From positions 1-29,509 of IMG/VR virus record IMGVR_UViG_3300030104_003770: a stretch of DNA of 29,509 bases; one strand, written 5' to 3'. The position numbers and the translations under genes are program-made. Of the stretch, positions 11,437 to 15,009 are shown in pieces; within the stretch, counting starts at the first letter, position 1; each line of letters begins with the position of its first letter. Below the pieces are notes generated by a model. The model saw only the letters and a list, made by a program, of their open reading frames with translations. It was not told the origin of the DNA and did no database searches. This stretch comes from a virus.

Positions 11437-13137
11437 ATGGCAGACGAACCAATAGACAAGTCCATTAAAGAGTTAGTTGATAGTAACGAACAGGTTGTTG
11501 ATAGCGTTGAAGATCTCAACAGTAGCATTCGCCAAGCTTCTAAAGATATAGACGATGCAGCATTTGAGATGGATTATCTTGGTAATACTTTAGCTAAAAA
11601 ATCCTCGAATGTTGAAGTTGGGAAAAAAGAACAACAATCAAAAGACGAAACTAAAAAAACTAAAGAAGCAATTGAACCTGGGTTAACTAGTATTACAGCT
11701 AAGCTTGGTGAAGTAATTGATAAAGCTAATAAGAATACTAAAACATTATCAGAAAGATTTACCGAGGGATTTAAAAATCAATACGAAAGTTTACAAAAGA
11801 ATGCTGATGTCTTAGGTAACACTAGAGATGCATTAAAAAATGATCTTGGTAAACTTAGTATAGCTTTTGCACCGTTACAAGCAATACCTGGTGTTGAAAC
11901 ATTAATGACATTTGTAAAAAGTATTTTGTCTAAGTTATTACTTGCTAGTATAAGGTTTTTTAGATTTCAAAGAAAAGAAGCGAACCAAAAGAAAGGTGCA
12001 GATAGATTAAAAGCATTACAAGGTGGTGGTGCTGATGCACCTGACATTGATGCACCTGATTTACCAGATAAGAAAGGTGTATTTAAATTATTCTTTGGTG
12101 GTCTAGCTGTCGCATTATCAGTTTTCTTTAAAGGATTCCTCGCCGGATTCAAACAAGGACTTGCAAAAACATTAGCATTCTTTGGTATTAACAGATGGAC
12201 TAAATCTTTAAAAGCAGGAGCTTTGAAAAACTTACAACAAATGGGTGGTAAGATTACAGCTTTTGGTAATAAAGTTAGAAAGTTTTTTGCTCCATTAGGT
12301 AAAGTAAGTAAAGTATTTCAACCCGTAATTAAAGTAATTACAGGCATACTATCTAAAATAGGTATGTTTGGTAAAATACTTGGTAAGATATTCTGGCCAA
12401 TCAATGTAATTATCGGTGCAATAATGGGTTTAAAAGGAGCAGTACAAGGTTTTCAAAGATATACCGGTGAAGGACTCGCTGCTCAAATACTTGGAGGTAT
12501 TACAGGATTCCTTGGTGGTGTTACATCATACCTAATTGGTTGGCCTTTAGACTTACTTAAATCAGCTGTAACTTGGATTGGTGATAAGTTAGGATTCGAT
12601 ATGTCAGCACTTGAAGAATTCTCTTTTCAAGATATGTTTAAAGATTTATACAACTTCCTTGGTGACAATATAATTGATACATTTAATTATATTAAAGACT
12701 TATGGGCCAACATAGACTTGGGAGAATACTTGAGTGGTTTATTATCACAAGCTATGAATAAATTAAAAACAATCTTTATGAAAGTTATGGCATTCCCTAA
12801 AGCTATTGCAAAGGGATCTGCTGCAGCCGTTGGAGCTTTATTACCAGGTGGTGAATCACCAAGAGAAGCTTTCAATAGAGCATTCAATGAATCTATGGCT
12901 GGTTCTGAAGCTAGAATTAAAGCAGAAGTACTAAAAGGTCAAGAACTACAAGCACAAATGGATAAAACTACAGAAGCTGCTAGAGATGTTGAGTATGGTG
13001 GTAAAGATAGAGATGCTAAAACTGTTAACAATGTTGTACAAACGAATAATCAATCTGTTTCTAATACTAAAAAATCAGCACCTTCGAAACAAAGAGTATC
13101 AGACGAATTTAGTCATAGATTAGCCTTAGCTCAGTAG
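11437..13137 (+). CDS. 29: tail tape-measure / hub protein, gp29-like
   Basis: A 566-aa protein; T4 gp29 is 590 aa. The N-terminal 130 residues are acidic and helical. A Lys-rich stretch follows, then a long hydrophobic middle (about 205-400) rich in Gly/Phe/Ile/Leu (FFGGLAVALSVFFKGFLAGF, FWPINVIIGAIMGLKGAVQG, GGITGFLGGVTSYLIGW) suited to lie in the tube lumen and later insert in the membrane. The C-terminal part is polar and Gln/Asn-rich. Position directly after the gp26/gp51-like chaperone pair supports the tape-measure role. It starts 7 nt after the preceding stop. Confidence 0.82.
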   Translation: MADEPIDKSIKELVDSNEQVVDSVEDLNSSIRQASKDIDDAAFEMDYLGNTLAKKSSNVEVGKKEQQSKDETKKTKEAIEPGLTSITAKLGEVIDKANKNTKTLSERFTEGFKNQYESLQKNADVLGNTRDALKNDLGKLSIAFAPLQAIPGVETLMTFVKSILSKLLLASIRFFRFQRKEANQKKGADRLKALQGGGADAPDIDAPDLPDKKGVFKLFFGGLAVALSVFFKGFLAGFKQGLAKTLAFFGINRWTKSLKAGALKNLQQMGGKITAFGNKVRKFFAPLGKVSKVFQPVIKVITGILSKIGMFGKILGKIFWPINVIIGAIMGLKGAVQGFQRYTGEGLAAQILGGITGFLGGVTSYLIGWPLDLLKSAVTWIGDKLGFDMSALEEFSFQDMFKDLYNFLGDNIIDTFNYIKDLWANIDLGEYLSGLLSQAMNKLKTIFMKVMAFPKAIAKGSAAAVGALLPGGESPREAFNRAFNESMAGSEARIKAEVLKGQELQAQMDKTTEAARDVEYGGKDRDAKTVNNVVQTNNQSVSNTKKSAPSKQRVSDEFSHRLALAQ

Positions 13138-13140
13138 GTG

Positions 13141-13167
13141 AAAAAACTAGCCCCGCTTCCCGCTGTT
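13141..13167 (-). terminator. terminator of the candidate ncRNA
   Basis: On the minus strand AAC-AGC pairs with GCT-(A)-GTT around a 10-nt loop (GGGAAGCGGG), giving 6 bp with one bulged A. The T run continues to 13141 (TTTTTT in all). It would end the leftward transcript just before it runs antisense into gp29. Confidence 0.5.
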
Positions 13168-13311
13168 AATTCCGATATCTCCTGCCGCTTCAGATATCTT
13201 TCCTCATTGATTGTCAAGATTCCCCAATCTTAACCGACCCGTCTTTCTTAGATTACTTGAAAGACTCATGACCTGACACGAAGGTCACTTCCCATATTCC
13301 TGAATTAGGTT
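13141..13311 (-). ncRNA. candidate structured late ncRNA (new)
   Basis: This protein-free stretch lies between the convergent gp29 and gp32 genes and is visibly richer in G and C. On the minus strand it holds four consecutive hairpins: TGACCT/AGGTCA (13269-13287), GTCTTTC/GAAAGAC (13241-13265), GTTAAGATT-GGGG-AATCTTGAC (13213-13234, 9 bp) and GATATCT/AGATATC (13174-13198). A terminator-like hairpin with a T run follows. The 9-bp stem contains a G.U pair that would be a C.A mismatch on the plus strand, so the minus transcript folds better. An exact late promoter lies at its upstream end. I match it to no known RNA family. The length is about 165-170 nt and the role is unknown. Confidence 0.65.
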
Positions 13312-13315
13312 ATAG

Positions 13316-13323
13316 TATTTATA
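13316..13323 (-). promoter_or_regulatory. T4-type late promoter of the candidate ncRNA
   Basis: Exact TATAAATA on the minus strand, seven bases past the gp32 stop. The only thing downstream on that strand before gp29 antisense is the hairpin array, so it appears dedicated to the ncRNA. Expected +1 is about 13309-13311. Confidence 0.68.
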
Positions 13324-13329
13324 ACTCTA

Positions 13330-14235
13330 TTACTGGTCGTTAGCAAGTTTTTCAAAATAACTCATAGTAGAATCACCTGAGTCTGTTGAATTACTTACTG
13401 GTGCTGGTGTATCAGCCCATGGTGTATCATCAGCTGTTGCTGTTTGACCAACCGAGTTATCATCTGATATTGACTCAGCTGTTGCTGTTGATACTTCTGT
13501 ACCTGACAATCCTAAAGCTCTGTCTAACTGAGCTTTTAATTCATCATAAGATTTAAATTGGTCAGGAGCAATAATCTCTGCTAGAGAATGTTGCTTATTG
13601 TAGATACCTTCTAAAACAGAATCATCTTCTGATATAGGAGCTGGACTTGCGAACTCTGATTTATCATAGTTCCAATATCCATCTACTTTTCTAACTTTAA
13701 GTTTAAAGTCAGCACCTTCCCACATATCAAATGGATTGATAGGTTTCTCGTCCTCGAACTGAGGTTGCATTACATCTTTGACTTTCTCAAAGATTTTTTT
13801 ACCGAAACGATAAAGCATAACTTTACCTTCGTTCTCAGGATGAGTTGGATCAGAAACAACAAGAACATTACTTACATAGTGTAATCTCCTTTTTTGTTTT
13901 CTTGCTTGATCCTTTTGAGCTTCATCACCACTGTTCCATAGTTGAGTATTGTACTCACTTATCGGACAGTTTTGATTAAGTGTTGTTAAAGATTTCTCTA
14001 TTAACCAACCACCTGGTCCTTGAAAACCATGGTCCCAATATTGGACCCATGGAAGTTCTTCACCATTAGCTGCTGGTAAGAAACGAAGTACTGCATAACC
14101 ATTACCAGATTTATCTAGTTCAGGTTTCCAATACCTATCGTCACCATAGGATTTCTTTTCTGAGGTCTCTGATTCCAGAGCAGTTTGAAGTTTGTCGAAT
14201 CCGCCTCGACTGCGTTTTAATTCATTAAATGACAT
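13330..14235 (-). CDS. 32: single-stranded DNA-binding protein gp32
   Basis: A 301-aa protein, exactly the length of T4 gp32. The basic start (SFNELKRSRGGFDKLQ) is the cooperativity domain. The OB core includes GYAVLRFLPA, ELPWVQYWDHGFQGPGGW and FGKKIFEKVKDV. The C-terminus is acidic and Ser/Thr-rich, ending in SYFEKLAND, as for protein-protein tails. T4 gp32 binds zinc with one His and three Cys; only one Cys is left here (LNQNCPISEYN), so the zinc site is lost. AAGGAG lies 6 nt before the ATG. Confidence 0.95.
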   Translation of the reverse strand: MSFNELKRSRGGFDKLQTALESETSEKKSYGDDRYWKPELDKSGNGYAVLRFLPAANGEELPWVQYWDHGFQGPGGWLIEKSLTTLNQNCPISEYNTQLWNSGDEAQKDQARKQKRRLHYVSNVLVVSDPTHPENEGKVMLYRFGKKIFEKVKDVMQPQFEDEKPINPFDMWEGADFKLKVRKVDGYWNYDKSEFASPAPISEDDSVLEGIYNKQHSLAEIIAPDQFKSYDELKAQLDRALGLSGTEVSTATAESISDDNSVGQTATADDTPWADTPAPVSNSTDSGDSTMSYFEKLANDQ

Positions 14236-14283: not shown

Positions 14284-15009
14284 TTATATAAAACTATCGT
14301 ATGTTAACGGTTTTTTAATTCCGTCATTATATATAGTATAATTGACATTTTCAAATCTGTCAATCACTTTTTTTATCTGTGCTTCTTGAGTTCCTAATAG
14401 TGAGTTAGGATTATCTGTACCAACCCTCAAGCGAGAAGTTTCTTTCTCTCTGTCATAGGCATTAGTACCAGCATAGATATTCTGATAAGTATCATCTTGA
14501 AAGTTCCATATTGAATCGAAACCGACAAGACATACTTCATCAAAACCCATTATAGAAGCCTGAGCCATAGCTTGACTTCCTGCAAAGAAGTTGACACTAA
14601 ATCTAGGGTCTTCTTCTGTACCTTGCATGTTCGTTATTTTCCATAGTGAGTCTACACCCACAACATGAACTTCCATGATATCTGAGATATCATCTTGAAG
14701 TCCGAATATCCAACATTCTTCCCACCTGTCTAAATCAGACTCTTTAATAGTGTATGAAGAATCGAATTGTGTAAGAATTATATCTTTCATATCTATGGGT
14801 ATAGGGTCATAGTCTGGAAAGATACATTCATTATCTTTCGGATATTCTGATTTACATATTTCTTTTATAATATTTGAATCACCTGATACAAGATAATCTG
14901 GACTGTAATCTCTGTATAAAGCATTACAACCAAATGTAGTTCCATCAAGTGTATCTAAGTCTAATCCTTTTCTAGAAGGACCATTACCAATTATATAAGC
15001 TATACCCAT
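14284..15009 (-). CDS. DUF115 / MptE-like protein, possible glycan or nucleotide-sugar enzyme
   Basis: A 241-aa protein. The Rossmann-like start (AYIIGNGPSRKGLDLDTL) with GNGPS at 8-12, then GCNALYRDYSPDYLVSGD, is the signature of DUF115-type proteins related to MptE and to motility-associated glycosyltransferases. A second motif (FFAGSQAMAQASIMGFDEVC followed by LVGFDS) is typical of the same fold. Substrate unknown. It overlaps the gp59 stop by 10 nt and sits between gp32 and gp59, so it is co-transcribed with replication genes, which is not where T4 keeps such a gene. Confidence 0.72.
   Translation of the reverse strand: MGIAYIIGNGPSRKGLDLDTLDGTTFGCNALYRDYSPDYLVSGDSNIIKEICKSEYPKDNECIFPDYDPIPIDMKDIILTQFDSSYTIKESDLDRWEECWIFGLQDDISDIMEVHVVGVDSLWKITNMQGTEEDPRFSVNFFAGSQAMAQASIMGFDEVCLVGFDSIWNFQDDTYQNIYAGTNAYDREKETSRLRVGTDNPNSLLGTQEAQIKKVIDRFENVNYTIYNDGIKKPLTYDSFI

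Follow-up and report, generated by a model that had tools for sequence, protein, structure and literature searches.

The window analysed here is the whole of a 29.5-kb virus record of IMG/VR (29,509 nucleotides), in which genes of T4-like phages were recognized, namely those for gp32, a DNA helicase loader, the baseplate, the tail tube and a DNA end protector. The gene for gp32, the single-stranded-DNA-binding protein (13330-14235, minus strand; PHROG 224, E = 5.3e-116), and a convergent 566-aa ORF, which ends at 13137 on the plus strand, face each other across a gap at 13138-13329. A preliminary description of this gap had named the two neighbors gp32 and gp29; the first name was borne out, whereas the 566-aa ORF has no match in PHROG or Pfam. 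The gap is, as had been described, richer in GC (45-48%) than the background (about 33%) and free of any ORF of at least 40 aa, and because the short frames in it are not conserved either, a coding role was rejected. The closest named gp32 proteins are those of Methylophilales phage Melnitz (58%) and Pelagibacter phage HTVC008M (55%), and on this basis the host is probably a marine heterotrophic proteobacterium. The gene immediately upstream of gp32 (14284-15009, minus strand), which is conserved also in the inspected relatives L030, L060, L064 and L066, has the motif YIIGNGPSR...SGDS, a partial match to PHROG 30607 (function unknown) and no match in Pfam.

An exact copy of TATAAATA, the TATA box of T4-type late promoters, lies on the minus strand at 13316..13323, 6 nt past the stop codon of gp32. 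The number of such octamers is by itself unremarkable (eight in the window, 5.8 expected). All eight positions of this one, however, are invariant in the 32 distinct sequences aligned here, and in a 129-kb relative (G001; IMGVR_UViG_3300009593_000010) nine of the 21 TATAAATA octamers lie ahead of ORF starts, within 120 nt of them (1.3 expected); both findings favor the late promoter proposed in the preliminary description. In T4, roughly one helical turn separates the 8-bp TATA box from the transcript start that follows it (PMC2988020), and by this rule transcription would start about 6 nt downstream of the octamer, near 13310, and yield about 170 nt. The predicted late transcript (13140..13310, minus strand) thus extends from about 6 nt past the TATA box to a U run, where the homology among relatives stops even when their convergent genes differ (L007 and L009). 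The sequence of its 5' leader showed no conservation in the alignment of 32. We infer that TATAAATA is a T4-type late promoter from which an RNA of about 170 nt is made chiefly late.

Five hairpins and their covariation

The four hairpins of 6, 7, 9 and 7 bp that had been described were confirmed on the minus-strand RNA, and a fifth, bulged one follows them. P1 (13268..13288, minus strand) has 6 bp and a conserved loop, UUCGUGUCA; 98% of the cells are paired over its five alignment pairs, four of which show double changes. P2 (13241..13265, minus strand; 7 bp) is variable in both the length and the sequence of its loop, and 83.5% of its cells are paired, with double changes in all seven pairs. 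P3 (13213..13235, minus strand), with 9 bp including a U.G pair, is paired in 99.7% of cells, with double changes in four pairs, and its GGGG loop is invariant in the canonical form of the RNA (T98, G99-G102 and A103 of the alignment). The linker from P3 to P4, GAGGAAAG (13198..13205, minus strand), is nearly invariant family-wide, and P4 (13174..13198, minus strand; about 7 bp), with an invariant GCGGCAG in its loop, is paired in 95.5% of cells; both statements include a mini form described below, P4 being counted over 35 sequences. P5 (13145..13167, minus strand) consists of AAC-AGC / GCU-A-GUU with a GGG...GGG loop and is followed by U6 in the window; its upper helix shows independent compensatory changes from AAC/GUU to AGA/UCU (L020) and to GAC/GUC (L066). 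A covariance model (R1) of the 70-nt core composed of P4 and P5 matches 13138..13207 (minus strand) with 86.9 bits (E = 1.2e-21), the window's own sequence being among the inputs from which the model was built.

Across the family the stems are variable, and it is the loops and linkers that are fixed: UCGUGUC in P1, UGGGGA in P3, GAGGAAAG or GCGGAAAG between P3 and P4, GCGGCAG in P4 and GGCGGG...GGGGC in P5. In L062-L065 the RNA is reduced to a mini form with a single 5' hairpin, P4 and P5, in which the G-rich loops are kept. No closing multibranch helix or pseudoknot was supported. A long-range helix of GGGAC with GUUUU, proposed by RNAalifold, clashes with P5, is at odds with L020 and was not adopted; a kissing pair between the P1 loop and the P2-P3 linker was also dropped, since no covariation was seen on inspection by eye.

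The fold of the window's sequence alone is unremarkable (z = -1.48 on the minus strand and -1.74 on the plus strand). Such modest scores on both strands, and the fact that inverted repeats occur in DNA too, would fit a chance folding or a DNA-level element, i.e. a cruciform or a replication or packaging site. The comparison of relatives, however, far exceeds its controls and so removes the doubt about chance. In the full-length alignment of 32 distinct sequences, which took some of its guidance from one clade and is therefore effectively less independent than the sequence count suggests, 92.1% of the cells of P1-P5 are paired. Cells with double changes number 183, compared with 64.7 +/- 8.0 in shuffles and no more than 43 with slid partners, and the RNAalifold energy is -32.3, compared with -7.1 +/- 2.8 for shuffled columns (z = -8.9). 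The homologous regions therefore do have the conserved, covarying stems whose absence, by the preliminary description's own test, would have refuted it. Moreover, the structure conservation is asymmetric between the strands (SCI of 0.78 for minus and 0.44 for plus), and G-U cells outnumber A-C cells by 89 to 9 family-wide in the minus sense, which fixes that sense; it had been deduced earlier from a single G.U pair in the window. A DNA-level element or chance folding is thus strongly disfavored, to the point of being very improbable. In a separate core alignment, which takes in the divergent forms L059, L062, L063, L066 and L068, the pairing of P4 and P5 is maintained through independent changes. 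In short, the comparison shows an RNA structure of defined sense that is conserved among the relatives and consists of five hairpins in a row, with a conserved promoter octamer on its 5' side.

The last of these hairpins had been described as terminator-like, with a T run. This holds for the window, in which P5 and its U6 are terminator-like, although they are absent from the list of a consensus terminator scan. It does not hold for the family: a T run of at least five follows P5 in only 18 of the 42 distinct members, so a GC-rich hairpin with a U run is not a family-wide feature. P5 would then be a terminator at most in the window's own subgroup; across the family it is a conserved, covarying hairpin.

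Distribution across phages

A search for relatives of gp32 gave 80 loci. Counting only those contigs that extend far enough past gp32, and defining the clade by a gp32 identity of at least 66%, the core model recognized a single copy immediately 3' of gp32 in each of the 59 clade loci and none in the 11 more distant gp32 loci with downstream sequence; gp32 is immediately upstream of the RNA in every case. Longer records of the relatives contain one strong copy each. No significant match was found when the whole records of HTVC008M, Melnitz, P-TIM68, P-SSM2, AG-345-L05 and AG-345-P14 were searched with the model, and blastn searches of named phages with three family members gave nothing credible. 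When 2.9 million viral contigs were scanned with a pattern, 39 stretches were obtained. Of all core matches in the retrieved loci, 108 follow the C-terminus of gp32. Two core matches are located elsewhere; one is at a contig edge (L096) and the other is a GC-rich chance match (L142). A degenerate pattern scan of cellular contigs gave GC-rich chance matches, and the element was in none of the matches listed.

In the outgroups that were checked, an ordinary hairpin-plus-T terminator lies behind gp32. Loci outside the clade, namely L070-L073, L076, L077, L079 and L204 (Melnitz), have other conserved stretches in the first 100 nt or so past the gp32 stop, before the terminator, and CCTTGGTGGTTGAATTGGATTCACACTGAAAG is common to Melnitz and L079 between gp32 and the terminator; perhaps these represent another structured element of the gp32 3' UTR. 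Upstream of gp32, permuted tmRNA genes were recognized in L079 (490-963), L204 (221-694) and L078 (1267-1565), and in L079 and Melnitz they adjoin a glutamine riboswitch. The permuted tmRNA of Melnitz was already known (PMC9004378), and no tmRNA was found in the window or in G001.

In the subclade with the mini form (L062-L065), a co-directional 427-aa gene follows the RNA (in L064, 5170-6453 on the plus strand). Its product has a CVVCH haem motif and a weak match to Cytochrome_CBB3 (E = 0.006, below the cut-off), and is possibly a phage-borne c-type cytochrome.

The hairpin around the promoter and the relation to gp32

The promoter octamer is bracketed by an inverted repeat, P0 (TAG.GTTATA / TATAACCTA; 13306..13329, minus strand), the 5' arm of which is in the 3' UTR of gp32, upstream of the predicted late start. 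Since the late transcript would be without this arm, P0 could form only in RNA that reads through from gp32. Of 40 distinct sequences, 30 have the octamer enclosed by five pairs or more, and P0 is missing by MFE in the remaining 10; in the window itself it is weak (-4.8 kcal/mol). In 20 representatives, with the arms taken strictly outside the octamer, the mean energy was -6.0 kcal/mol for a sequence's own arms and -4.0 kcal/mol for exchanged ones, and none of 2000 permutations was as good, although shared ancestry can inflate tests of this kind. The arm sequences are unrelated among at least four subgroups and co-vary with each other: AGGTTATA with TATAACCT in L004, GTTAGG with CCTAAC in L051, GTTTTAGTC with GACTAAAAC in L066, and TCTTATCC with GGGGTAAGA in L062. 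Because a hairpin that spans the promoter covaries, read-through from gp32 probably happens as well. The preliminary description had called the RNA stand-alone; this covariation, together with the subclade in which the RNA precedes a co-directional gene, makes the term doubtful.

In T4, the genes e, soc, 49 and I-TevI have a promoter-in-hairpin layout and are silent on early read-through mRNA (PMC3014915). The present arrangement is similar in that the 5' strand of a hairpin contains or adjoins TATAAATA, so that only RNA initiated upstream can form this hairpin. However, the T4 hairpins hide a ribosome-binding site, whereas here a noncoding RNA follows and no conserved ORF. No ribosome-binding site or start codon of a conserved ORF was found hidden by the 3' arm of P0, as the relatives have none of their short 5'-end frames in common. 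To our knowledge, a promoter-in-hairpin ahead of a noncoding RNA is a new variant of the layout. In most members P0 spans the 5' leader only and not P1-P5, and it overlaps a G-rich element only in L062 and L063; it thus does not necessarily turn the RNA off.

Other late promoters of G001 were also inspected. At position 111141 (L356:11101-11188), a hairpin of 17 bp (-26 kcal/mol) holds TATAAATA in its loop region, and its 3' arm covers GTGGAG directly before the ATG of a 315-aa ORF. This resembles the early-silencing hairpin of T4 gene e, and the T4 design is therefore in use in the clade. At position 94061 (L355:14021-14108), a strong palindrome, AAGTCATATAAATATGACT, with an energy of -24 kcal/mol over the stretch, contains a second TATAAATA, which lies 135 nt ahead of a 309-aa ORF with a clamp-loader ATPase-like N-terminus. 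Most of the other late promoters of G001 have no such hairpin.

The main rival to an RNA of its own is that the region acts only in cis, as the 3' UTR of gp32, its hairpins terminating, protecting or processing the gp32 mRNA and keeping it apart from the convergent operon, with no independent RNA made. It is favored by the strict position behind gp32, by the ordinary terminators that the outgroups carry in the same slot, by a P0 that is formable in read-through RNA alone, and by the terminator-like P5 and U6 of the window. However, such a 3' UTR needs no promoter octamer, yet the octamer is invariant in 32 of 32 aligned sequences; termination needs no invariant loop sequences, and the U run is missing in most members. 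In L064, in addition, the gene downstream is co-directional, and no other TATAAATA lies between. We regard this explanation as unlikely on balance, despite its being the strongest of the alternatives.

Possible functions and relation to known RNAs

The best reading overall, to which we would give a probability of roughly 40%, is a new family of phage noncoding RNAs, made mainly late, that probably bind a protein through their conserved G-rich loops. The late promoter TATAAATA would drive the RNA of about 170 nt late in infection. P0 would separate two forms, a gp32 read-through RNA that folds P0 at its 5' end and a late-promoter RNA without the 5' arm, and the stems would serve only to display the G-rich loops and the linkers. 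In the least certain step, the late RNA would act in trans and hold a phage or host protein on GGGA, GGGG, GAGGAAAG, GCGGCAG and GGCGGG..GGGG; the conserved loops could equally form a base-pairing or catalytic surface instead of a protein-binding one. More tentative is the possibility that the family is, for T4-type phages, the first class of regulatory RNAs to work in trans, with origin-dependent 5' folds, acting only late and capturing a host or phage protein on its G-rich loops. The late-only action in this proposal would follow from the different 5' folds that the two origins give.

If the conserved unpaired loops and linkers act by base pairing, the RNA would be a small RNA whose G-rich loops or single-stranded 5' end pair late with C-rich sites in host RNAs. 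It lies immediately behind gp32 throughout the family and has an invariant octamer, and such a place at an mRNA 3' end is typical of sRNAs derived from these ends (PMC9438474). However, the window has no other site complementary to the P4 loop, to the GAGGAAAG linker or to GCCCC, so that pairing with the phage's own mRNAs is disfavored within this fragment, and the sequence of the 5' leader is not conserved. This kind of action is doubtful, a little more so than that of a 3' UTR. Still less probable is a catalytic, packaged or virion-assembly RNA, e.g. a self-cleaving or pRNA-like one. Its size of about 170 nt, its late promoter and its invariant non-helical nucleotides would suit such a role, but no ribozyme or pRNA family of Rfam matches, no closing multibranch helix or pseudoknot is supported, and the terminase and head genes are not adjacent.

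The locus provides a candidate phage RNA whose structure is fixed by covariation, whose late promoter is conserved and whose promoter-bracketing hairpin covaries, and the alignment and the model enable a search for the transcript in existing ocean metatranscriptomes.

As the preliminary description had supposed, the RNA belongs to no family in Rfam 15, in which the window gave no match at the gathering cut-off; at E <= 5 there is only a worm snoRNA (15.4 bits, E = 0.77, gathering cut-off 48). A literature search for IMES-type ocean RNAs gave no match either in the papers covered, with the limit that an undeposited ocean RNA described only in other papers could coincide. Among the collections searched, it is a previously undescribed RNA family, in an ocean clade of T4-related phages, and by its kind a phage small RNA.

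The conserved GAGGAAAG and, loosely, the GGCAG downstream of it resemble region CR-I of bacterial RNase P RNA. However, there is no match to RF00010, and local alignments with eight bacterial RNase P RNAs mostly scored no better than shuffled sequences (two of 32 pairs at p <= 0.03), so kinship was rejected. In stringing short hairpins together, with purine-rich loops and linkers that are conserved, the RNA is reminiscent of protein-titrating RNAs of the CsrB and RsmZ type; most loop motifs here, however, are without a conserved GGA, and GGA is not enriched (4-7 copies, compared with 3.5-6.8 in dinucleotide shuffles), which argues against a CsrA-type sponge. Noncoding RNAs have also been described in T4-like marine phages, namely wcaG, PhotoRC and manA of cyanophages and CfrI (PMC2864571, PMC9602691). 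These, however, are 5' UTR elements or an antisense RNA of psbA, whereas the RNA described here matches none of the Rfam families. RNAC and RNAD of T4, a pair of small RNAs with an unknown role, are likewise stable and noncoding (PMC3014915). By description they are set apart, since they come from the tRNA region of T4, whereas the present RNA lies behind gp32 with a late promoter of its own.
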